Position numbers and translations under genes: made by a program | The notes under the pieces: model-generated | The model's database searches: none | What the model saw: the letters and a program-made list of their open reading frames with translations, nothing else | Told to the model about the DNA's origin: nothing | Shown: positions 4,974 to 25,143 of the stretch, one piece after another | Layout of the letters: each line of letters opens with the position of its first letter | Numbering within the stretch: the stretch's first letter is position 1 | IMG/VR virus record: IMGVR_UViG_3300032086_001327 | Span: 1 to 26,733 of that record | Source of the DNA: a virus | Length of the DNA stretch: 26,733 nucleotides | Reading direction: 5' to 3' (one strand)

Positions 4974-6188
4974 GTGTTATTTCAAACACTGGATGACAAA
5001 GATCAGTGCGTTGGCATCTATTATGACGGCAAGCTAATCTTCAACTTTGAAGAATTTCCACAAGATTTAACAAGAACCTGGCGTTACAGTCCATATTTGC
5101 TTGGCTATCGTGGCGTAGACTACGCAGAGATATACGCTCAGGGCAAAACACTAGACGATATGTGTCCAGAGTACCTTAAAGAAGACTGGGAAGAGGTGTG
5201 CTCCAAACTTAAAGCGTTTCTCTTGTCGTTTAGCTTTGCTAAGGTTAACATGAGGCACAATTGTTTCTTCGATCTGGTGCCACAGAAGTTTTTGAGAGAT
5301 TACTGCCAGGTTAAGAACGAAATAACAAATCATGTTATTGAAAGTTATCCTAAGCCATCAAATTACAAGCACCTTGCTGCTGTGAACGCTATGATACGAG
5401 ACATTGAGTCCCAATCATTGTGCGTTGAGGTAGATTCTTTGTTACCAAAAGTAGCTGATGTTAAGGTATCGAACTTTATTAAAAGAATCAAGGAGTGCGA
5501 TAATCATATCAGGTATAATTTGTTTGGCACTGTGACTGGGAGGCTAACAACCAGAAAGAAGTCGTTTCCAATCTTAACGATGAACAAAGACTACCGACAT
5601 GTTCTCAAGCCAAAGAATGATTGCTTCATAGAGCTTGACTACAATGGCGCAGAGCTTAGGGTGTTGCTTCATCTTCTGGGATATGACCAGCCCGACTATG
5701 ATGTGCATCGCTGGAATTTAGAGAACGTGTTCGAGAACAAGATAACCAGAGCAGAGGCAAAGACATTGTTCTTCGCTTGGTTGTATGGTAGCAATTCTAA
5801 AGAGGTCAGAGAGCACTCATCGCTTCTAAAGAGGAAGTACGACAAAGAGACTTTGGTGGATAAGTATTGGGACGGGCACACGATTAGAACTCCCTTTAAT
5901 CGAGATGTGGTTGCCCCCAAACACAAAACCTTAAACTATCTGATACAATCCGTGACAGCAGACCTTGCACTAGAACAAGCGACAAAGGTATGGGCTTTGT
6001 TGAAAAAGAAACGAGCGAAATCAAGCGTGGCTTTCATTGTTCACGACGCATTAGTTATTGACTTTGATTTAGCAGATAGAGAACTATTTAATGAAGTCCA
6101 AGAGATATTTAGTTTGACTAGGTTTGGTAAATTCCCTGTCAATAAGAGCATTGGCAAAGATTTTGGTTCTATGGAAGAGGTTACATAA
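4974..6188 (+). CDS. polA: Family A DNA polymerase, compact, no visible proofreading domain
   Basis: A 404-residue template-directed DNA polymerase. It starts at GTG with GGAGGA at 4965-4970. Recognisable PolA elements in order: TVTGRL at 186-191; motif A DYNGAELRV with catalytic D222; the O-helix R259...K263...F267...Y271-G272; the Q-helix Q325; and motif C VHDALV with D358. The residue equivalent to E. coli Phe762 is Phe267. The palm and fingers are present, but the thumb region is short. Residues 1-130 show no DxE-type 3'-5' exonuclease motifs. A 5'-3' exonuclease is encoded separately at 10519. A second, unrelated polymerase (DnaE) lies at 18562, so this enzyme may be the repair or gap-filling polymerase, or the two may divide the work. 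Confidence 0.9.
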   Translation: MLFQTLDDKDQCVGIYYDGKLIFNFEEFPQDLTRTWRYSPYLLGYRGVDYAEIYAQGKTLDDMCPEYLKEDWEEVCSKLKAFLLSFSFAKVNMRHNCFFDLVPQKFLRDYCQVKNEITNHVIESYPKPSNYKHLAAVNAMIRDIESQSLCVEVDSLLPKVADVKVSNFIKRIKECDNHIRYNLFGTVTGRLTTRKKSFPILTMNKDYRHVLKPKNDCFIELDYNGAELRVLLHLLGYDQPDYDVHRWNLENVFENKITRAEAKTLFFAWLYGSNSKEVREHSSLLKRKYDKETLVDKYWDGHTIRTPFNRDVVAPKHKTLNYLIQSVTADLALEQATKVWALLKKKRAKSSVAFIVHDALVIDFDLADRELFNEVQEIFSLTRFGKFPVNKSIGKDFGSMEEVT

Positions 6189-7489: not shown

Positions 7490-7517
7490 TTTACAAACGA
7501 TTTAAATCATGTACTAT
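7490..7517 (+). promoter_or_regulatory. Sigma-70-type promoter of hsp20
   Basis: TTTACA at 7490-7495, a 16-base spacer, and TACTAT at 7512-7517, with an A/T-rich upstream stretch (seven T's at 7482-7488). It shares the TTCTTTACA-N16-TAxxxT layout with the promoter before the SSB gene. The start of transcription would be near 7524, leaving a leader of about 85 bases before the hsp20 ATG. Its position directly after the preceding stop codon makes it a natural internal promoter. Confidence 0.6.
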
Positions 7518-7530
7518 TTAATTGTGGAAA

Positions 7531-7599
7531 GCAAGTGGCTGTGCGGTGCTTGCATTCTTGACTGCCTTCGGGAGTCACAACAACCTTGCTTATTAAAGG
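7531..7599 (+). promoter_or_regulatory. Structured hsp20 leader, possible RNA thermometer
   Basis: Three hairpins can be drawn in the leader. The first pairs GCAAG (7531-7535) with CTTGC (7549-7553). The second pairs GACT-CC (7560-7563, 7565-7566) with GG-AGTC (7571-7576) around a TTCG tetraloop, with one bulged G. The third pairs CCTT (7584-7587) with AAGG (7596-7599), which is part of the ribosome-binding site AAGGAGG. A weak hairpin hiding the ribosome-binding site behind stable upstream hairpins is the plan of ROSE-type thermometers found before small heat-shock genes. None of the stems is followed by a T run, so they are not terminators. The thermometer role is inference. Confidence 0.4.
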
Positions 7600-7609
7600 A
7601 GGAAACAAA

Positions 7610-8026
7610 ATGAGCAATTTAGTACGATACAACACACCTAGTCTTCTTGGACGCAGCATCTTTGATGAACTGTTCGGAGACTTCCAATCACTAGCGAGAA
7701 AGTCAACCTCGGGTTATCCGGTGGCTGACATCTTCTCCAATGAAGACGGGAGCACAACTCTTGAGTTTGCTCTAGCAGGCTTCAGTAAAGAGGATCTTAG
7801 TATTGAGATCCAACCAGAAAAAAGCAGTCTAACTGTGCGTGCGGAGGCTAACGGCGACGGGGACAGCAATAGACGTATTGCACGCCGCAGCTTCCAAAAG
7901 ACTTTTGTGAACTATGATAGCAACCTAGACCTAACGGCTAGTACTGCTGAGTTTCACAACGGGCTACTGTCAGTCACTATCCCACGGAAGGCTGAGGTCC
8001 AGCCCGTCATTATTGATATCAACTAA
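7610..8026 (+). CDS. hsp20: Small heat-shock protein (Hsp20/alpha-crystallin)
   Basis: A 138-residue holding chaperone that keeps unfolding proteins soluble. The ATG at 7610 has AAGGAGG at 7596-7602; an in-frame TTG at 7586 lies inside the leader and was not used. The alpha-crystallin domain covers about residues 36-128: YPVADIFSNEDG, LEFALAGFSKEDLSIEI, LTVRAE, the RSFQKTF strand and GLLSVTIPRK. A C-terminal I-x-I motif (IIDI) is present. The N-terminal arm of about 35 residues is short. The gene has its own promoter and terminator, so it is expressed apart from its neighbours. Hsp20 genes are common in T4-like cyanophages and other marine myophages, where a role in particle assembly is suspected. 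Confidence 0.93.
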   Translation: MSNLVRYNTPSLLGRSIFDELFGDFQSLARKSTSGYPVADIFSNEDGSTTLEFALAGFSKEDLSIEIQPEKSSLTVRAEANGDGDSNRRIARRSFQKTFVNYDSNLDLTASTAEFHNGLLSVTIPRKAEVQPVIIDIN

Positions 8027-8047: not shown

Positions 8048-8077
8048 AAAAGGAGGGGGGTTAACCCCCTCCTTTTT
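8048..8077 (+). terminator. Intrinsic terminator after hsp20
   Basis: AGGAGGGGG (8051-8059) pairs perfectly with CCCCCTCCT (8065-8073) around GTTAA. The stem extends through AAA (8048-8050) against TTT, and the T run continues to 8078. It lies 22 bases after the hsp20 stop. This is the strongest terminator in the window and separates the hsp20 unit from the SSB promoter 30 bases later. Confidence 0.92.
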
Positions 8078-11471: not shown

Positions 11472-12947
11472 ATGACAAAAGAACAACAAACTTTTTCCCA
11501 GTTTGGAAAATCTTTCCAAGAAAAGCTGGGACGGATCATACTACACGATCGTGTGTTTGCAAACCAGATGTATGAGGTGTTAGAATATAAACACTTCGAT
11601 AAAAAATATCTACAGGCGTTTGTCCAGTCCGTATTTGACTATAAGGAAAAGTACGGAACTCATCCTACATTTGCGATTATGGTACCAGTCATTAAAGACG
11701 AGTCGCAAGACTATCCCGAGCTAGTCAAGCGCCAGGTGTTTGATTACCTTTCTCGCATTAAAAGTGGCGATGTAAGTGGTGACGACTGTGAATATGTAAA
11801 AGAGAAAGCATTAGACTTCTGCAAGAAGCAAAAACTAAAGGCTGCGATTCTCACGTCTGTAGACCTATTGCAGAAATCAAGCTTTGAAGAGATTCAAAAA
11901 GTAATCAACGAAGCGATGAAGTTGGGCACCGACAATGACCATGGTCACGACTTCATCCAAGACTTTGAGGCCAGGTATTTACCAAAAGCACGAAGCCCAG
12001 TTATGACCGGATGGCAGGAGATTGATAGCATCACTCGTGGGGGTCTTGGGAAGAGAGAGCTTGGTGTCGTGGTGGCACCGACCGGAGCCGGCAAGTCGAT
12101 GGCTTTGGTCCACCTTGGGTCCAGGGCTGTCTTGATGGGTAAGACAGTTGTTCATTATACTTTGGAGTTGGCTGAAACCACTATCGGCTTACGATATGAT
12201 TCTGCGATCACTGGGGTGCCGCTGAGCATGACTTTTGAATACAAAGATCAAATCAAAGAAAAAATTACAAATATTGAAGGAGGCTTGATCGTCAAGGAAT
12301 ATCCAACAAAGTCTGCGACTACAAAGACTTTGGAGAACCATCTCGATCGCCTGCGACAAAAAGGTGTCGAACCAGACATGATTATTGTCGATTATGCTGA
12401 CCTTCTTCGTCCTGCAAGAACTAGTTACAAACAAGAACTTCGTCACTCGCTCGGAGACATCTACGAGGAGCTACGGGGTATCGCACAAAAGTATGACATC
12501 CCTGTTTGGACCGCATCGCAAACCAACAGAGGTGGATTAAATGCGGAGGTTATTACTATGGAGTCAATCAGTGAAGCCTTCAACAAATGTTTTGTTGCCG
12601 ACTTTATCTGCACGATCTCCAGAACAGCCCAAGACAAGACTGAAAACACTGGCAGATTGTTCGTTGCCAAGAATCGTAACGGACCAGATGGTATGGTCTA
12701 TCCTATGAATATGGACACCAGCAAGGTCTACCTAGAGGTGTTGCCTGTTGAAGAGGGTGGGACTATAGATTCAGTGGTTGCTAAAACAAAAGAAGAACAA
12801 CAGAAGTGGTTGACCAGTAAGTATAAGAAGTTTTCTGGTAATGGCGGTAATGCTCGCAGCCAGGAACAGAGAGAGTTCAAAGAAAATATGAAGAACGAGT
12901 TACGTGAATTGAAAGAAAAGCTAGACAAGGAGAAAGAAGCACCATGA
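11472..12947 (+). CDS. DnaB/gp41-type replicative helicase
   Basis: A 491-residue hexameric 5'-3' DNA helicase. The N-terminal domain (1-150) is helical, as in T4 gp41. The RecA-type motor starts near 175: Walker A APTGAGKS (202-209), HYTLELAETT as motif H1a, Walker B MIIVDYADLL with D307, and WTASQTNRGG as motif H3 near residue 345. The last 60 residues are charged and helical. The ATG lies two bases after the exonuclease stop. The stop overlaps the RNR start by four bases (ATGA), so translation is coupled. No primase is in view. Confidence 0.93.
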   Translation: MTKEQQTFSQFGKSFQEKLGRIILHDRVFANQMYEVLEYKHFDKKYLQAFVQSVFDYKEKYGTHPTFAIMVPVIKDESQDYPELVKRQVFDYLSRIKSGDVSGDDCEYVKEKALDFCKKQKLKAAILTSVDLLQKSSFEEIQKVINEAMKLGTDNDHGHDFIQDFEARYLPKARSPVMTGWQEIDSITRGGLGKRELGVVVAPTGAGKSMALVHLGSRAVLMGKTVVHYTLELAETTIGLRYDSAITGVPLSMTFEYKDQIKEKITNIEGGLIVKEYPTKSATTKTLENHLDRLRQKGVEPDMIIVDYADLLRPARTSYKQELRHSLGDIYEELRGIAQKYDIPVWTASQTNRGGLNAEVITMESISEAFNKCFVADFICTISRTAQDKTENTGRLFVAKNRNGPDGMVYPMNMDTSKVYLEVLPVEEGGTIDSVVAKTKEEQQKWLTSKYKKFSGNGGNARSQEQREFKENMKNELRELKEKLDKEKEAP

Positions 12948-14815
12948 GCGAAACTGATCTATCAACAGAAATCCTATCGGATATCACGGTGTATATGAAA
13001 TACGCCCGTTATCTCCCCGAGAAGAAACGTCGGGAGACCTGGGATGAATTAGTATCTCGCAATATGGAAATGCACTTACGCAAATACCCAGAGCTTAAGG
13101 ATGAGATCAAAAGCAATTATGATTTTGTTCGGGGTAAGAGAGTTTTACCTTCAATGCGCTCTATGCAGTTTGCGGGCAAGCCTATCGAAATCTCTCCCAA
13201 CCGCATCTTCAACTGTGCTTACGCACCAGTAGATGACTGGCGTGTGTTCGGTGAGATTATGTTTTTGTTGCTCGGCGGCACAGGCGTTGGCTACTCTGTG
13301 CAGCAGCATCACGTTGATCAGTTGCCTGAGATCCGAAAGCCCAATCCAAACAGGACAAGAAGATATTTAATAAGTGATAGTATTGAAGGTTGGGCAGATG
13401 CTGTTAAATATCTTATTCGCAGTTATTTCTTTGGCGGATCTAAGTTGCGTTTTGACTACAGCGACATTCGAGCCAAAGGCGCTCGGCTTGTAACCTCTGG
13501 TGGTAAAGCCCCAGGACCCCAGCCACTAAAAGAGTGTTTGGTTAAGCTTGAGGGTATTCTATCTGAGAAGCAAGACGGCGATCGATTGAGTGCTTTGGAG
13601 GTTCACGATATGGTATGTCATGTCGCTGACGCTGTTTTAGCTGGTGGCATCCGTCGGGCTGCTCTTATCTCTTTGTTCTCCGCAGACGATAAAGAAATGA
13701 TTTCTTGCAAGGCGGGCAAGTGGTGGGAGACAGATCCACAGCGTGGGCGAGCCAACAACTCCGCTGTGCTTTTGCGGCATAAAGTAACAAAACAATTCTT
13801 CCTCGACCTATGGAAGCGAGTGGAAGCATCCAACGCTGGTGAGCCCGGCATCTATCTGTCCAATGACAAGGACTGGGGAACCAACCCGTGTTGTGAAATT
13901 GCTTTGCGACCATTCCAGTTCTGTAATCTGACTGAAGTAAATGTTAGCAATATCGAGGGGCAGAATGATCTTGAGCAACGAGTCCGTGCCGCTTCGTTTA
14001 TTGGCACCCTTCAGGCGGGCTACACAGACTTCCATTACCTTCGCCCAGTCTGGCAGCGAACCACAGAGAGAGATGCTCTCATCGGCGTGTCTATGACGGG
14101 GATTGCTTCGGGTCGTGTGCTCGAAGATGACATTGATCTCCGGGCTGCGGCTCAAGTTGTGAAGGAAGAAAACGCTCGTGTTGCAGAGTTGATTGGCATC
14201 AACAAAGCTGCTCGCACGACCTGTGTAAAGCCTGCTGGCACAACGAGCCTCGCACTAGGTACTTCGAGTGGTATTCATGCTTGGCACAACGATTATTATA
14301 TTCGCCGAATCAGGGTCGGAAAGAATGAACCAATCTACTGGCATCTATCGATTCACCACCCAGAACTGGTTGAGGATGAATATTTTAGACCTCACGACAC
14401 CGCAGTTATTTCGGTGCCACAAAAGTCACCAGAGGGTGCCATCTTACGAACTGAGTCTGCCTTCCAGCTATTGCGGCGGGTAAAGAAAATTACAAGGGAG
14501 TGGGTTAAGACTGGGCACCGCAGTGGACAAAACGCCCACAATGTTTCAGCTACTATTTCTCTTAGACAAAATGAGTGGACCGATGCTGGCGAGTGGATGT
14601 GGGATAACCGAGAGCACTATAACGGATTGTCCGTGCTTCCCTATGATGGCGGGACATATCAACAAGCACCTTTCGAGGATTGTTCAAAGGAAACTTATGA
14701 GGCAATGATGGGTAATCTTGTGGGTGTTGACATGTCTAAGATCATTGAAGAAGAGGATAATACCGACCTCAAAGGTGAGGCTGCTTGTGCCGGCGGTGCC
14801 TGCGAAATATCTTGA
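12944..14815 (+). CDS. nrdJ: Adenosylcobalamin-dependent (class II) ribonucleotide reductase
   Basis: A 623-residue monomeric RTPR-type enzyme reducing ribonucleotides, using B12 to make the thiyl radical. Active-site residues by comparison with the Lactobacillus enzyme: C91 (FNCAY) and C327 (QFCNLTEV) as the redox pair, C316 and E318 in NPCCEIALRP as radical cysteine and glutamate, and AGGIRRAAL at 233-241. The C-terminal tail ends with C615-x4-C620, the pair that recharges the active site. The glycine usual in NPCGE is Cys here. The protein is over 100 residues shorter than the Lactobacillus enzyme (739), so part of the N-terminal insertion is missing. There is no ATP-cone. The host or community must supply cobalamin. 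Confidence 0.92.
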   Translation: MSETDLSTEILSDITVYMKYARYLPEKKRRETWDELVSRNMEMHLRKYPELKDEIKSNYDFVRGKRVLPSMRSMQFAGKPIEISPNRIFNCAYAPVDDWRVFGEIMFLLLGGTGVGYSVQQHHVDQLPEIRKPNPNRTRRYLISDSIEGWADAVKYLIRSYFFGGSKLRFDYSDIRAKGARLVTSGGKAPGPQPLKECLVKLEGILSEKQDGDRLSALEVHDMVCHVADAVLAGGIRRAALISLFSADDKEMISCKAGKWWETDPQRGRANNSAVLLRHKVTKQFFLDLWKRVEASNAGEPGIYLSNDKDWGTNPCCEIALRPFQFCNLTEVNVSNIEGQNDLEQRVRAASFIGTLQAGYTDFHYLRPVWQRTTERDALIGVSMTGIASGRVLEDDIDLRAAAQVVKEENARVAELIGINKAARTTCVKPAGTTSLALGTSSGIHAWHNDYYIRRIRVGKNEPIYWHLSIHHPELVEDEYFRPHDTAVISVPQKSPEGAILRTESAFQLLRRVKKITREWVKTGHRSGQNAHNVSATISLRQNEWTDAGEWMWDNREHYNGLSVLPYDGGTYQQAPFEDCSKETYEAMMGNLVGVDMSKIIEEEDNTDLKGEAACAGGACEIS

Positions 14816-15388: not shown

Positions 15389-16087
15389 ATGAAAAAGCTA
15401 TTGAATGAGTGGAGAAAGTTTATTAATGAATCTGGCTTCAACCGGATCAAAAACATTCTTCAGGGCAAGGTAGCGTCTGTTAGTACTGTTGGTTTCATGA
15501 CAGCAGAGAACCCGATGGCTCAACAGCTTAGTCGTAAAGAAAACAAAGCCCTCAACAAAGAGTTGATGGCATTTATGCGTGAGCGTGGTTATGGACCAAT
15601 CCGTATTCGTGGCAGGTTCGGTAACAAGGAGAGATCCTTTATGATTCCAAACATAACTCGTGATGATATTGTGGAAGCTGGTAAAAAGTTCTCACAAGAA
15701 TCAGTTATCTTTGGCGAAAAGACTGGTGACAACGAATTTGTTTTCCAATATATCGAAGGGGACAAGACAATCCAGCGTAGAGACGTTGCTTTGTTTGATG
15801 ATGAAGTGCAGGCTCGTGAAGACTTTTTTTCGCAAGAGAGACAGTCGGCGGGTCGAAAGTTTTATATCCCATTCTTTGATGACCAATATGATATGGACGA
15901 GTCATATCAGTATGAGTATGACTTGCCACAATTGACTGAACAACAAATGGTGGAAAACCAAGATTTGATTAGCGAGATTAACGAGAGAATTGTATACTCG
16001 CTTGATCAGGGGACCACACCAAAACACAGATGGCACCACAGGCAAGTGCTTAAGGTCCGTCTTCGGGAACTGAAGAAGAAATTATGA
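15389..16087 (+). CDS. DUF3293-like protein with capsid-targeting-like N-terminal tag
   Basis: A 232-residue protein with AGGAG ahead of its ATG. The first 14 residues, MKKLLNEWRKFINE, closely match those of the next gene (MKKLMEGFRGFLAE) and resemble T4 internal-protein targeting tags (MKTYQEFIAE) that prohead protease cuts after Glu. Residues about 31-110 resemble the DUF3293 pattern: a strand leading to TAENP, LSRKENKALNKELM, GYGPIRIRG, SFMIPNI and the helix EAGKKFSQESVIFG. DUF3293 has no settled function. The C-terminal 100 residues are acidic, then basic at the end. If the tag works as in T4, the protein would be packaged into the head and delivered to the host. Tag role and family are inference. 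Confidence 0.55.
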   Translation: MKKLLNEWRKFINESGFNRIKNILQGKVASVSTVGFMTAENPMAQQLSRKENKALNKELMAFMRERGYGPIRIRGRFGNKERSFMIPNITRDDIVEAGKKFSQESVIFGEKTGDNEFVFQYIEGDKTIQRRDVALFDDEVQAREDFFSQERQSAGRKFYIPFFDDQYDMDESYQYEYDLPQLTEQQMVENQDLISEINERIVYSLDQGTTPKHRWHHRQVLKVRLRELKKKL

Positions 16088-18561: not shown

Positions 18562-21500
18562 ATGACAAATAGAATAGAGTCGAAGATTCCCTTTGTTGGA
18601 CTTCATGCTCACTCCGGTCTCTCGCCGTTCGACGGTCTGGGTATGCCTGGTGAGCATATGGATTTCGCATACGAGAACGGAATGAATGCCCACGCCTTGA
18701 CGGACCACGGGCATATGAACGGTCTGTCGTTTCAGGTAGAGCATCTCAAAAAGATGCGAGCCGACGGCAAAGAGTTCCGAGCCCTATATGGCTGCGAGTC
18801 CTACTTCATCCGCTCACACAAGAAGTGGCGGCAGATGTACGAGGAGCACAAGGCTAATCAAAAGCGGCAAAAGAAAGAAGAGTTCGGTATGGTCATTGAG
18901 ACCGAAGACCGTAAACTCAAGCGCAATCCGCTCAACGATCGCCGTCACCTTGTGATGATTGCTCAGAACCAGATAGGTCTGAACAACTTATTTAAACTGG
19001 TGTCGGATAGTTACCAGCCTGAAAACTTCTATCGGTATCCCCGTATGGACTTTGAGATGCTGGACAAGTATAATGAGGGACTGATTATCAGCACCGCCTG
19101 TATGTCTGGTCCTCTGTTCGGGGACTATTGGAAGAACCGAGACAAGAGCGCCGACCACGTTCTCGCAGCCATGCGGGATACAATTGCCCAGTTCAAAGAA
19201 ATCTTTGGTGACAGGTTCTACGGCGAAGTCCAGTGGAATGACATCAAAGAACAGCACGAGGGCAACGCTCTTATTATTCAAGCCTGTATTGAAATGGGCG
19301 TAGAGGTCATCAGCACCGCCGACAGCCACTACCCCCGCCCGGAACTCTGGAAAGACCGGGAGATGTACAAGCGTATCGGCTGGGGCGGCAAGGTCCCAGA
19401 ATGGGCTGACCCCGATAGTCTGCTGCCTGCATCCGTGGAAGAGGTCGGCTACGAGTTGTACCCAAAGAACGGCGACCAGATGATGGAGTCGTACAAGAAC
19501 TACTCGTCCAAATATAATATTGAGTACGACGACACATTCATCCGTGATAGTATTGAGCGCACACATCACATCGCCTTTGACCGCTGCGAGGATTTCGTTC
19601 CCAACAGCGAGGTCCGCCTCCCAGAGTTTGTGGTGCCCGAAGGTAAGACAGCCATCCAGGCTTTGACCTCGGACGCTCTTGCGGGTATGAAGAAAAAGAA
19701 TCTGTCAGACCCAGAATATGTGGACCGTCTGAAGTATGAGCTTAACATTATCAAGGAGCGTGGGTTCGCTCAATACTTTCTGACGATGAAAGCCATCTCG
19801 GACAAAGCCCAAGAGGACATGTTAGTTGGGCTTGGTCGAGGTTCAGCAGCCGGGTCACTATTATCATATGTCTTGGACATCACCCAGGTGGACCCAATTA
19901 AATATGGACTCCAGTTTGAGCGGTTCTTGACCAAGGGCGGTAGCGGATATCCCGACATTGACTTTGATGTTGAGGAGCCAATGGAGTTGAAGAAGCAACT
20001 AGCTGATGAGTGGGGACCAACCACGGTTGTGCCCATCAGCAACTTCAACACGCTTCAACTCCGCTCACTCATCAAAGACATCGGCAAGTTTTATAATATC
20101 CCGTTCGCCGAAGTCAACAAGGTGACTGGCGTCATGATGAAAGAGGCTACACCAAAAGCCAAGGCTGCCAAGGGTCAGACCGCTGGCGTCTACACTCCCA
20201 CATTTGACGAGGTAAAAGAATACAGTGAAACACTCCAAGCCTTCTTTGACAAGTACCCAGAGGTTGCTACTCACGTTGATAACCTCTTCGGCAATATGCG
20301 GAGTATTTCTCGGCACGCTGGTGGGGTTGTGGTGGCAGAGAACCTTGACCGCCATATGCCCCTAATCAACTCTGGCGGTGTCATCCAGACTCCGTGGAGT
20401 GAGGGACAGAACGTCAGGCACTTGGAGCCGCTCGGCTTTATTAAGTTTGACTTGCTCGGCTTATCGACTCTCCGTATGATTTCGGGAGCAGTCCGCCACA
20501 TCCTCAAACGCCACCACGGAATTGAAGAGCCAACCTTCGAGCAAGTCAGAGATTATTATAATACACACCTCCACCCAGATGTGATCGACTTTGATAATCA
20601 AGAAGTCTGGCGTGAGGTATTCCACAAGGGCAAGTGGGCTGGTATCTTTCAGATGACCAACGGCGGAGCCCAAAAGTTTTGCCAACAGGCTCAACCAACA
20701 TCCCTGCTAGACTTTGCTGCGGTCACGGCTATCTTCCGCCCCGGACCACTTAGCGCCAAGGCTCACAGTCTGTATGTTGCGAACAAGTCCAACCCTAGCC
20801 AAGTACACTACGAGCACCCAATCATCAAAGAAGTGCTCGGAGATACATACGGGCTGCTGGTCTTCCAAGAGCAGTTGGCTATGCTCGCTCACAAGTTGGG
20901 CGATGACCTATCGCTAGACGAGGGCAACCTGCTCCGCAAAGTCCTAACGAAAAAGGGAACAGGAAAAGATAATATCAAGACCAAGCTTTATAATAAGTTT
21001 GTGAAGGGCTGCGGCAAACATGGCTTGTCTGAAGATGTAGCTAAGAACCTCTGGTCCAAGATGGAGTTCTTCTCAGGTTACGGCTTCAACTTATCGCACG
21101 CCGTATCCTACGGCGCTGTGTCTTTCCAGTGTGCGTGGCTAAGTTATTATTATCCGGTTGAGTGGATGGCTGCATTCTTAGACAAGGAGCCCGAAGACAA
21201 AAAGGCAGGAGCAATCAACACAGCCAAGTCCTTTGGGTTTGAGATTGTCCCGCCAAGCGTCAACAAGTCAGGACGAGTCTGGGAGATTGGCGACGACGGC
21301 AAGACTTTGATTCAGCCGCTCGCAGGCATCAAAGGTCTAGGCGACAGCGCCATTGATCAGATCGTAGCTAACCGACCCTTCAACAGTATTGAGGAGTTTA
21401 TCTTTAACGATAACATTACATACTCTAAGCTTAACAAGAAGGCATTAGATGTTCTGGTCAGGAGCAAAGCACTTGACGAGTTGATGGACGATAGATTTAC

Positions 21501-21972
21501 TGGAATGAAACACTTCTGGTCTGCTGTAGCATTGATGCGCCCGAGAAAAGAAAAGAACCTAATTGAAAACATTGAGATGTATGCACCAGAGGGTGACTTT
21601 ACTGACGAAGAAAAGCTGGAGCACTTTGCGTCTCTTACTGGCATCTTTCCACTCCACGAGATCATGCCCCAGCACATACAAAACAACTTGATGGAACGAG
21701 GGTGTCCACCGGTTAGTGAGTATGACCCTGATCTTGAATTAGTCTGGTTCATCCCTCGTGAGGTTATTCGGCGCAAGACAAAGAATGGCAAAGATTACTG
21801 GATTATAAACACGACGGACAGCAACGCATTTAATGCCCAGATTAGATGTTGGGGTGTAAAAGAAACGGATAGGATTTCTCTTAACAAAGTGTATGTTGCT
21901 AAACTAGAATATGATGAGAAGTGGGGCTTTAGCACCAGAAGCATTGGACGACACTTTAGGAGATTGAGTTGA
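18562..21972 (+). CDS. dnaE: DNA polymerase III alpha subunit (DnaE type)
   Basis: A 1136-residue family C polymerase, nearly the length of E. coli DnaE (1160). The N-terminal PHP domain has all nine residues that bind metal in the M. tuberculosis enzyme, by my comparison: H15, H17, D24, H49, E79, H129, C180, D254, H256. The polymerase core shows GLGRGSAAGSLLSYVLDI, catalytic D465 and D467 (PDIDFD), and D630 (KFDLLGLSTL). The segments SRHAGGVVVA and FSGYGFNLSHAVSYG also match, and an OB-like region lies near residue 1080. A helix-hairpin-helix (IKGLGDSAIDQI) is near residue 925. It is not interrupted by an intein. The ATG lies one base after the dioxygenase stop. Much of the gene is richer in G+C than the structural genes. 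Confidence 0.96.
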   Translation: MTNRIESKIPFVGLHAHSGLSPFDGLGMPGEHMDFAYENGMNAHALTDHGHMNGLSFQVEHLKKMRADGKEFRALYGCESYFIRSHKKWRQMYEEHKANQKRQKKEEFGMVIETEDRKLKRNPLNDRRHLVMIAQNQIGLNNLFKLVSDSYQPENFYRYPRMDFEMLDKYNEGLIISTACMSGPLFGDYWKNRDKSADHVLAAMRDTIAQFKEIFGDRFYGEVQWNDIKEQHEGNALIIQACIEMGVEVISTADSHYPRPELWKDREMYKRIGWGGKVPEWADPDSLLPASVEEVGYELYPKNGDQMMESYKNYSSKYNIEYDDTFIRDSIERTHHIAFDRCEDFVPNSEVRLPEFVVPEGKTAIQALTSDALAGMKKKNLSDPEYVDRLKYELNIIKERGFAQYFLTMKAISDKAQEDMLVGLGRGSAAGSLLSYVLDITQVDPIKYGLQFERFLTKGGSGYPDIDFDVEEPMELKKQLADEWGPTTVVPISNFNTLQLRSLIKDIGKFYNIPFAEVNKVTGVMMKEATPKAKAAKGQTAGVYTPTFDEVKEYSETLQAFFDKYPEVATHVDNLFGNMRSISRHAGGVVVAENLDRHMPLINSGGVIQTPWSEGQNVRHLEPLGFIKFDLLGLSTLRMISGAVRHILKRHHGIEEPTFEQVRDYYNTHLHPDVIDFDNQEVWREVFHKGKWAGIFQMTNGGAQKFCQQAQPTSLLDFAAVTAIFRPGPLSAKAHSLYVANKSNPSQVHYEHPIIKEVLGDTYGLLVFQEQLAMLAHKLGDDLSLDEGNLLRKVLTKKGTGKDNIKTKLYNKFVKGCGKHGLSEDVAKNLWSKMEFFSGYGFNLSHAVSYGAVSFQCAWLSYYYPVEWMAAFLDKEPEDKKAGAINTAKSFGFEIVPPSVNKSGRVWEIGDDGKTLIQPLAGIKGLGDSAIDQIVANRPFNSIEEFIFNDNITYSKLNKKALDVLVRSKALDELMDDRFTGMKHFWSAVALMRPRKEKNLIENIEMYAPEGDFTDEEKLEHFASLTGIFPLHEIMPQHIQNNLMERGCPPVSEYDPDLELVWFIPREVIRRKTKNGKDYWIINTTDSNAFNAQIRCWGVKETDRISLNKVYVAKLEYDEKWGFSTRSIGRHFRRLS

Positions 21973-23823: not shown

Positions 23824-24113
23824 TGAATAACAAGAAAAGACAACAGAAGCTAAAGCGTCGCCTGAAAAGAAAAAAACAAAAAGACAAAAAAAGACTTGAC
23901 AAAGATCTTCAAGACGTCAATAATAAGATAGCATTATTTCAAAGGAGACCAGATGAATGCTCTGCTTGTAACAAAGAATTCCCAGAAAAAGACAAGGAGG
24001 CTCACATGACTTGGCAAGTCGTAGTTCGTAATGAGGAGGAGACAGTTAGGTTGTTCTGCCCAGACTGTCAAGAGAAAGCTAAAAGAGTTGTGGAGAGCAG
24101 CAATGAAGTTTAA
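23823..24113 (+). CDS. Basic protein with C-terminal zinc ribbon
   Basis: A 96-residue protein starting at an ATG that overlaps the previous stop. The first 30 residues are almost all Lys, Arg, Gln and Asp (KRRLKRKKQKDKKR), able to bind nucleic acid. A four-cysteine zinc ribbon follows: C46-x-x-C49 and C79-x-x-C82 separated by 29 residues. No enzyme domain is visible. This shape suits a small transcription- or translation-associated factor. Its end overlaps the GMP reductase-like gene by eleven bases. Confidence 0.65.
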   Translation: MNNKKRQQKLKRRLKRKKQKDKKRLDKDLQDVNNKIALFQRRPDECSACNKEFPEKDKEAHMTWQVVVRNEEETVRLFCPDCQEKAKRVVESSNEV

Positions 24114-25143
24114 GCAGGCGGTTACTTATGATGATATGTTGCTTGTGCCACAGTACAGTGACATTACAAGCAGGAGTCAAGTGGACATCAGCAGCTATAT
24201 GGGGCATAGAGAATTTACTCTGCCTGTGATCGCCTCACCGATGGACACCGTATCAGAGGAGCAAATGGCGATCACTATGAACAGTGTTGGTGGTATTGCT
24301 GTGCTACACAGATACAACACGATCTCCGAACAACAAAAGATGGCACACAAAGTCGTTAACCAAACCGACTGGGCTGGACAAGTCGCTGCTGCCATCGGTG
24401 TGACAGGAGATTATCTAGAGCGTGCCGAAGCTCTCATCGCTACAGGCGTTGACGTATTATGTGTGGACGTCGCTCACGGTCATCATACTTTAATGAAAAA
24501 AGCCCTGACAACTTTGCGGCAAGAATATGGAAATCATATCTATATCATGGCGGGTAACGTCTGCACGTTGGAAGGGATTAATGATCTGGCTGATTGGGGA
24601 GCTAATGCTGTACGCTGCAATATTGGTGGCGGCTCCATTTGTAGCACTCGCTTGGTTACGGGACACGGTTTACCAGGCTTACAAACAATCTTCGACTGTG
24701 CCAGAACAGACCGAGACGTTGCCATCATCGCAGACGGAGGAATCAAATCTTCGGGAGATATTGTTAAGGCGTTGGCAGCGGGGGCAGACTTTGTGATGTG
24801 CGGCTCGCTCCTGGCGGGCACCACTGAGAGCCCAGGCAGAGTCCTAAACCTACCAGATAATACTCGTGTAAAAGAATACAGAGGTATGGCATCAAGAGAT
24901 GCACAAATGAACTGGCGCAACAAAACCTCTACTCCAGAGGGCGTCGCCTCGTATATCCCTTACAAGGGAAGTGTTCGTCTTATCTTAGAGGATCTTAAGG
25001 GCGGCATTAAGAGTGGACTGTCTTACTCTGGTGCCCGTAACTTAGATGAACTTCGCAACAAAGCCGAGTGGGCACTTCAGACTTCTGCTGGCACGACTGA
25101 AAGCGGCACACACATTTTTACTCAGGACGGGAAAAGAAAATAA
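24103..25143 (+). CDS. GMP reductase / IMP dehydrogenase-family protein
   Basis: A 346-residue TIM-barrel enzyme of purine nucleotide metabolism. I chose ATG 24103 with GGAGA just upstream; an in-frame start at 24031 lies far inside the previous gene. Catalytic C180 is in GGGSICSTR (175-183), and the EYRGMASRDAQ loop and PYKGSV follow. It has no CBS domains (IMPDH is near 480). The flap between the GM loop and PYKG is short, as in GMP reductase, and the Arg-Tyr pair used by IMPDH for water activation is not evident. I therefore lean to GMP reductase (GMP to IMP), though IMP dehydrogenase cannot be excluded. Either would shift the host guanine/adenine pool. Confidence 0.8.
   Translation: MKFKQAVTYDDMLLVPQYSDITSRSQVDISSYMGHREFTLPVIASPMDTVSEEQMAITMNSVGGIAVLHRYNTISEQQKMAHKVVNQTDWAGQVAAAIGVTGDYLERAEALIATGVDVLCVDVAHGHHTLMKKALTTLRQEYGNHIYIMAGNVCTLEGINDLADWGANAVRCNIGGGSICSTRLVTGHGLPGLQTIFDCARTDRDVAIIADGGIKSSGDIVKALAAGADFVMCGSLLAGTTESPGRVLNLPDNTRVKEYRGMASRDAQMNWRNKTSTPEGVASYIPYKGSVRLILEDLKGGIKSGLSYSGARNLDELRNKAEWALQTSAGTTESGTHIFTQDGKRK

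Follow-up and report, generated by a model that had tools for sequence, protein, structure and literature searches.

The hsp20 Locus and Its Leader

The window, by which we mean the whole 26,733-nt viral record IMGVR_UViG_3300032086_001327 (26.7 kb; labelled G000) and which comes from a marine phage, carries a gene for a small heat-shock protein, hsp20, followed on its 3′ side by genes for an ssDNA-binding protein (8173) and for UvsX (9000). The features of the locus are collected in Table 1. Judging from the position of the sigma-70-like promoter, the mRNA would start near 7524, which would leave a leader of about 86 bases up to the ATG at 7610.

Table 1. Features of the hsp20 locus in the window
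Feature	Positions	Strand	Description
Sigma-70-like promoter	7490–7517	+	TTTACA (7490–7495), 16-base spacer, TACTAT (7512–7517)
Hairpin H0	7531–7553	+	GCAAG..CUUGC; loop UGGCUGUGC(G/A)GUG, nearly invariant; clade-specific extra 5′ hairpin
Hairpin H1	7559–7577	+	UGACU[G]CC-UUCG-GGAGUCA; UUCG loop; bulged G7564
Hairpin H2	7584–7602	+	ROSE-type anti-SD CCUU[G]CUU (7584–7591) / AAGGAGG (7596–7602); loop AUUA
Alternative nine-pair helix	7586–7617	+	UUGCUUAUU (7586–7594) / AAUGAGCAA (7609–7617), over the start codon; absent from the earlier note
Shine–Dalgarno (SD) sequence	7597–7602	+	AGGAGG, within H2; from sequence
hsp20 gene	7610–8026	+	138 aa; Pfam HSP20, E 1.5e-9; phrog_432; arginine equivalent to IbpA R93 present (alignment)
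Terminator-like hairpin	8055–8071	+	With a T run, 3′ of hsp20

Every element that an earlier note on this DNA had described in the leader, including two hairpins and a TTCG loop, was found in place. The "weak four-pair hairpin" that it saw over AAGG is real and covers the SD, but was understated, since the helix (H2) amounts to seven pairs once the bulged G7588 is taken into account and spans the whole SD; the letters of each pair were checked. The resemblance of TTGCT to the UYGCU element, also remarked in that note, corresponds to a genuine ROSE anti-SD helix: UUGCU (7586–7590), an instance of the U(U/C)GCU motif, lies opposite AGGA (7597–7600). Other traits of ROSE-like elements are present as well, namely a bulged G in the anti-SD helix (G7588), two to four hairpins with a conserved upstream one (H0, H1, H2) and a small heat-shock gene downstream (Pfam HSP20).

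Two further pairings were considered in the window. The 5′ arm of H0 (AAGCAAG, 7529–7535) complements every base of the anti-SD strand (CUUGCUU, 7585–7591) and could conceivably act as a release latch; this seven-pair switch was rejected, because the bare leader adopts it as its minimum-energy structure only at 60 °C and it is negligible below that temperature. The energy model prefers the helix over the start codon to H2 in the window (0.94 vs 0.009 at 25 °C). Of its nine pairs, 8–9 are kept in the 14 members of the window clade (defined below), and inspection by eye of more distant leaders whose start regions were displayed did not show it. We set this helix aside as the main conserved device, given that the clade in which it is kept is that of the window and that the protein start MSN may account for ATGAGCAA.

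Elsewhere in the same phage we noted genes for a bacterial-type DNA polymerase III alpha subunit (18562–21972), a family A polymerase (4974–6188), a B12-type ribonucleotide reductase (12944–14815) and an IMP dehydrogenase (24031–25143). Among the named-phage relatives listed for its UvsX, the nearest, that of Microcystis phage Mel-JY01, is only 40% identical. A DUF3293 protein (15389–16087) matched the S-adenosylmethionine lyase family weakly, under the cut-off, and is a possible counter-defence gene.

Conservation among Close Relatives

A protein search of IMG/VR yielded 26 hsp20 loci, from which the window and 13 near relatives were taken as the clade set. Mean pairwise identity among these 14 members was 0.895 in the leader, 0.823 in the coding region and 0.346 in the 85 bases upstream. 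Despite the diverging surroundings, a promoter-like pair with a 16-base spacer occurs 6–12 bases 5′ of the leader in all 14. Because the upstream DNA diverges while promoter and leader are kept, the same promoter–leader–gene cassette sits in different neighbourhoods. A DNA similarity search in named phages gave no match.

Hairpin H0 shows a C-G pair replaced by U-A in L015 and L016. When IMG/VR was scanned for the H0 motif, 21 stretches were retrieved, 18 of them directly 5′ of hsp20, two ending with the contig and one unrelated (L044).

Occurrence across Phage hsp20 Genes

The same fold precedes hsp20 in most of the phages examined. In a wider protein search, whose best 80 of 127 hsp20 loci were gathered regardless of their leaders, the anti-SD motif could be read in all 79 intact loci, with a varying hairpin upstream; the remaining locus (L010) is cut. 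Sixteen named phages were picked for diversity before their leaders were seen, and in 14 of them the motif was recognized by eye where the gene is annotated to start. One of the other two, P-HM2 (L178, 293–365), has the motif before a downstream ATG, its hsp20 start having been annotated 5′ of the element; that annotation is thus probably wrong, the true ATG probably being that at 365, after the ROSE hairpin. The element is absent from the other, Vibrio phage VpB-34.

A strict UYGCU..AGGA pattern preceded the start codon in 93 of 95 hsp20 leaders (the 79, the window and 15 named phages, P-HM2 being left out), as compared with 601 of 9,400 shuffles that kept the SD (6.4%). The two misses were VpB-34 and Atu_ph07, whose SD reads UGGAG.

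We also built a covariance model, R1, from 16 aligned leaders, all of them from phages. R1 matched the leader in 81 of 82 sources (337,678 bases), a count in which a few records overlap and 16 sequences are the model's own seeds. The best match elsewhere in these sources reached 14.8 bits, and the weakest leader matches (14.4–14.8 bits) were no stronger. The window itself scored 60.2 bits at 7551–7612, the next best place 10.6.

Similar results were obtained with two other types of Hsp20. Among 80 loci retained from 351 of the P-SSM4 type, 78 gave a full R1 match; the exceptions were L480, whose leader is cut by the contig end, and L436, whose contig begins inside the gene. Among 80 loci retained from 403 of the L135 type, R1 matched at the leader in 78. 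The motif read UYGCU in 69 of these 80 leaders and UUACU in 11, where the bulged G is replaced by A and the paired bases are kept. The UUACU leaders, which end near 400 (L507, L508, L510–L512, L514–L518 and L521), provide a natural test of the role of the bulge.

Covariation

The earlier note had proposed, as a check, that the pairing be kept in relatives. This it passed by a wide margin, in the reading of leaders, in the R1 matches and in the covariation analysis. The latter used alignment A6, which comprises 73 leaders fitted to the R1 model (of the 76 sources, L183, L208 and L226 scored under the threshold), with the 16 seed sequences among its rows. Over the 73 leaders, 95.2% of the pairing cells held a pair vs 80.3% in shuffled alignments; 144 cells were changed on both sides vs 41.5 ± 8.3; and the covariation score was 0.431 vs 0.161, with slid versions of the structure attaining at most 0.115. 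None of 500 shuffles reached the real value of any of the three measures.

Both hairpins contributed. In H1, whose arms vary freely in sequence, compensatory changes were observed for six of the seven pairs. In H2 they were observed for two of the six scored pairs: the outer C-G pair is G-C in one leader (S-RSM4), and an inner U-A pair is A-U in five. Next to the bulge, U·G alternates with C-G (53 and 19 leaders, respectively). Three of the six scored H2 pairs never vary, because H2 is so constrained by the SD.

Association with Chaperone Genes

The pattern CTTGCTT-(2–6)-AAGGAGRAAA retrieved at least 120 stretches from IMG/VR. In 114 of the 120 listed, the downstream gene encodes Hsp20, DnaK or GroES: 97 matched an Hsp20 profile, 5 were cut Hsp20s recognized by eye, 11 were DnaK and 1 was GroES, leaving 4 with other ORFs and 2 with none. 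The cut Hsp20 ORFs, DnaK and GroES were assigned by eye from the starts of the sequences. Since these stretches had been selected for the motif, they attest to its gene specificity, not its frequency. The 96 longer Hsp20s from the listed stretches fell into 39 clusters below 60% identity.

Among SD-led control genes the motif was found in 24 of 485, of which 13 encode DnaK and 2 GroES; the rest amount to 9 of 470, in a comparison where most of the hsp20 genes and some of these 9 control genes had been retrieved with that very pattern. On several contigs dnaK and hsp20 are consecutive genes, and an element of its own precedes each of the two. That the contigs with dnaK and groES are viral is taken from IMG/VR; their PHROGs matches are mixed.

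Eight virus-assigned contigs (L118, L120, L125, L138, L146, L152, L074 and L137) have two elements about 2 kb apart, and in those that were read one element stands before dnaK and the other further on, before hsp20. In L076 and L122 the element precedes groES, which in L076 is adjoined by groEL.

Family Assignment and Occurrence in Bacteria

When the window was compared with 4,227 Rfam families, the best was ROSE_2 (RF01832), aligned over its full length and in register, with 18.6 bits (E 0.094), far below the gathering cut-off of 65 bits. Of the 16 named phages, four (Melnitz, Atu_ph07, C48C1 and S-B64) had ROSE_3 (RF02523) placed at full length on their hsp20 leaders; the best of these, Melnitz, scored 34.1 bits (E 9e-4), below the cut-off of 43. 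The leader is therefore not filed under the curated ROSE_2 or ROSE_3 families, as their gathering cut-offs are not reached. At the gathering threshold, Rfam gave no match, and on 12 bacterial loci it returned only a tRNA; a filtered ROSE_2 search of 19 records gave a single 8-bit match. Freshwater-2 RNA was dismissed as an alternative family (E 4.4 only). A further profile, A2, was too diverse for searching the collection.

The phage-trained R1 model nevertheless recognized enterobacterial ibp leaders, which supports the ROSE-type plan that had been suggested for this leader. On a 5-kb stretch of E. coli K-12, its two best matches were ibpB (28.8 bits) and ibpA (11.6 bits). In 40 Enterobacteriaceae genomes there were seven matches at E 0.01 or better, six of them preceding an Ibp homologue; 33 of the 40, many under 2 Mb, had none.

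R1 found matches in 50 of 97 genomes belonging to the same order as a Pelagibacteraceae genome, with up to 47.3 bits, and all 20 matches inspected precede Hsp20. In 291 genomes of the cyanobacterial phylum, weak matches occurred in 22 (at most 29.7 bits), and one of eight inspected precedes Hsp20. One sequence of the cyanobacterial set, L386, has an Hsp20 with an unusually long N-terminus and a phage-like two-hairpin element; it could be host DNA or an integrated phage. The pattern followed by an ATG gave at least 119 matches in bacterial genomes; by a count of tags, 47 of those listed precede Hsp20 and 4 DnaK.

Energy Calculations

Nearest-neighbour calculations on 82 distinct leaders did not reveal SD burial above the shuffled level (SD unpaired at 20 °C, 0.464 vs 0.437 in shuffles). 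Opening the start region at 15 °C was in fact cheaper than in shuffles (4.34 vs 5.28 kcal/mol). The mean computed accessibility of the SD rose gently with temperature, and whole leaders were more stable than shuffles (mean z –1.47). Computed melting did not separate real from shuffled leaders; we therefore rejected it as evidence and treat it as neutral or contrary. ROSE hairpins are described as held together by imperfect and non-canonical pairs (PMC3669281 and PMC11182007). The nearest-neighbour model does not describe such pairs, and a weak lock suits a thermometer; this, however, is an excuse, not evidence.

Proposed Mechanism and Alternatives

The leader is most probably a ROSE-type RNA thermometer of the phage hsp20 gene. 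Its structure, with the conservation and covariation, its position and its likeness to enterobacterial ibp leaders are observed; the transcription start, the melting, the temperature response and the benefit to the phage are inferred. We take it to belong to a branch of the ROSE thermometers that is viral, to which autorepression by Hsp20 may be added. Its transcription would begin at a sigma-70-like promoter of its own. In the cold, the U(U/C)GCU strand would pair with the SD in H2, an imperfect helix with a bulged G, and ribosomes could not start on hsp20 because the SD would then be paired. Upon warming, which opens ROSE switches in bacteria and permits synthesis of the protein, H2 would melt first while H1 stayed folded, freeing the SD and allowing the chaperone to be made. 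In the window clade the anti-SD strand might instead cover the start codon, offering a second route to the same closed state.

Such a leader could also be mainly a protein-binding site. Phage Hsp20 would bind its own leader and block translation until titrated by unfolded proteins, an explanation that we consider possible, if somewhat doubtful. According to PMC10474464, E. coli IbpA represses its own translation via its 5′ UTR and needs R93 to do so. The alignment places an equivalent arginine in the window Hsp20, and a pattern match found it in 79 of 79, 80 of 80 and 80 of 80 phage Hsp20s from three sets and in 13 of the 16 named phages; VpB-34, devoid of the element, does not match the arginine pattern, and IbpB, which has no autorepressor activity, aligns a Q at that position. 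The nearly invariant H0 loop of the window clade would also suit a protein-binding site. However, this arginine could be kept for other reasons, and the E. coli protein also needs R97 and K98, where the window has K and T, respectively. Most phage leaders outside the window clade, moreover, show no H0 motif, and the arms of H1 vary freely in sequence. Autorepression may act together with thermosensing, and as a second layer on top of it we find it plausible.

It is improbable that some other translational control is at work, with a host or phage RNA-binding protein, a small RNA or a ribosomal factor recognizing the leader and temperature being irrelevant. The weak SD burial given by the energy model would fit, as would regA, a gene with the annotation of translational repressor that immediately precedes hsp20 in S-PM2, P-HM2 and S-RSM4. 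On the other hand, the element tracks chaperone genes (hsp20, dnaK, groES) across very different phages and is found in enterobacteria, SAR11 and SAR86 as well. It also fits the ROSE class, and those Pseudomonas representatives of the class that have been tested are temperature-responsive (PMC3669281). It is hardly credible that the leader is passive, i.e., a strong ribosome-binding site that is conserved while its pairings arise by chance, or a product of constraint on coding and promoter alone. By itself AAGGAGG makes a strong SD, and its energy-based burial is not above chance, but the compensatory changes in both hairpins contradict such an explanation, and the rarity of the motif in control genes outside hsp20, dnaK and groES, even with some of these picked by pattern, speaks against it.

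Relation to Known Thermometers

The leader closely resembles the short ROSE-like thermometers of Pseudomonas ibpA (PMC3669281), which share the two hairpins, a leader of about 60 bases, a small heat-shock gene and a U(U/C)GCU stretch pairing imperfectly with the SD in the 3′ hairpin. The present leader differs in lying in a phage genome and, in the window clade, in adding the 5′ hairpin H0 and the start-codon helix, whereas the Pseudomonas AUG is predicted to be unpaired.

Thermometers reported in phage genomes include those of lambda cIII, SPbeta blyA and a Caudoviricetes sigma-70 gene (PMC4166951, PMC10586365, PMC11182007). That of cIII works in the opposite sense, being open below 37 °C, while the blyA and sigma-70 elements are of the fourU type; as described there, none of the three is a ROSE element and none precedes a chaperone gene. 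Small heat-shock leaders of cyanobacteria also contain thermometers, in Synechocystis hsp17 and in Anabaena (PMC4166951). Among those of Anabaena, one has been called ROSE-like and one occludes the start codon; Synechocystis hsp17 differs in having a single hairpin.

In titles and abstract openings of open-licence papers on thermometers or ROSE elements and phages, we found no report of a ROSE element in a phage; an earlier report elsewhere is possible. Three papers dealing with small heat-shock proteins of cyanophages (PMC3827213, PMC5028025, PMC8546028), searched by term, showed no mention of a thermometer or untranslated leader, and a survey of P. ubique RNAs (PMC2704228), searched likewise, none of ROSE or a thermometer.

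Implications for Phage Biology

The element lies 5′ of almost every phage hsp20 examined, including those of the cyanophages P-SSM4, Syn33, S-PM2 and P-RSM4 and of Pelagibacter and Methylophilales phages. It may quite possibly be, although we would stop short of expecting it, that phages possess a translationally controlled heat-shock regulon of their own, in which hsp20 would stand behind its own ROSE element, as would dnaK and groES in some of the viruses. Such a regulon would have spread among phages that infect proteobacteria or cyanobacteria, some of them cyanophages with hosts that seem, for the most part, to be without the element, and Hsp20 may also bind the element, so that both temperature and protein damage would be sensed during infection. 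The presence of the element before almost all of these genes makes the role of phage small heat-shock proteins directly testable with cultured phages, and it offers a molecular approach to the ways in which temperature could alter marine infections.
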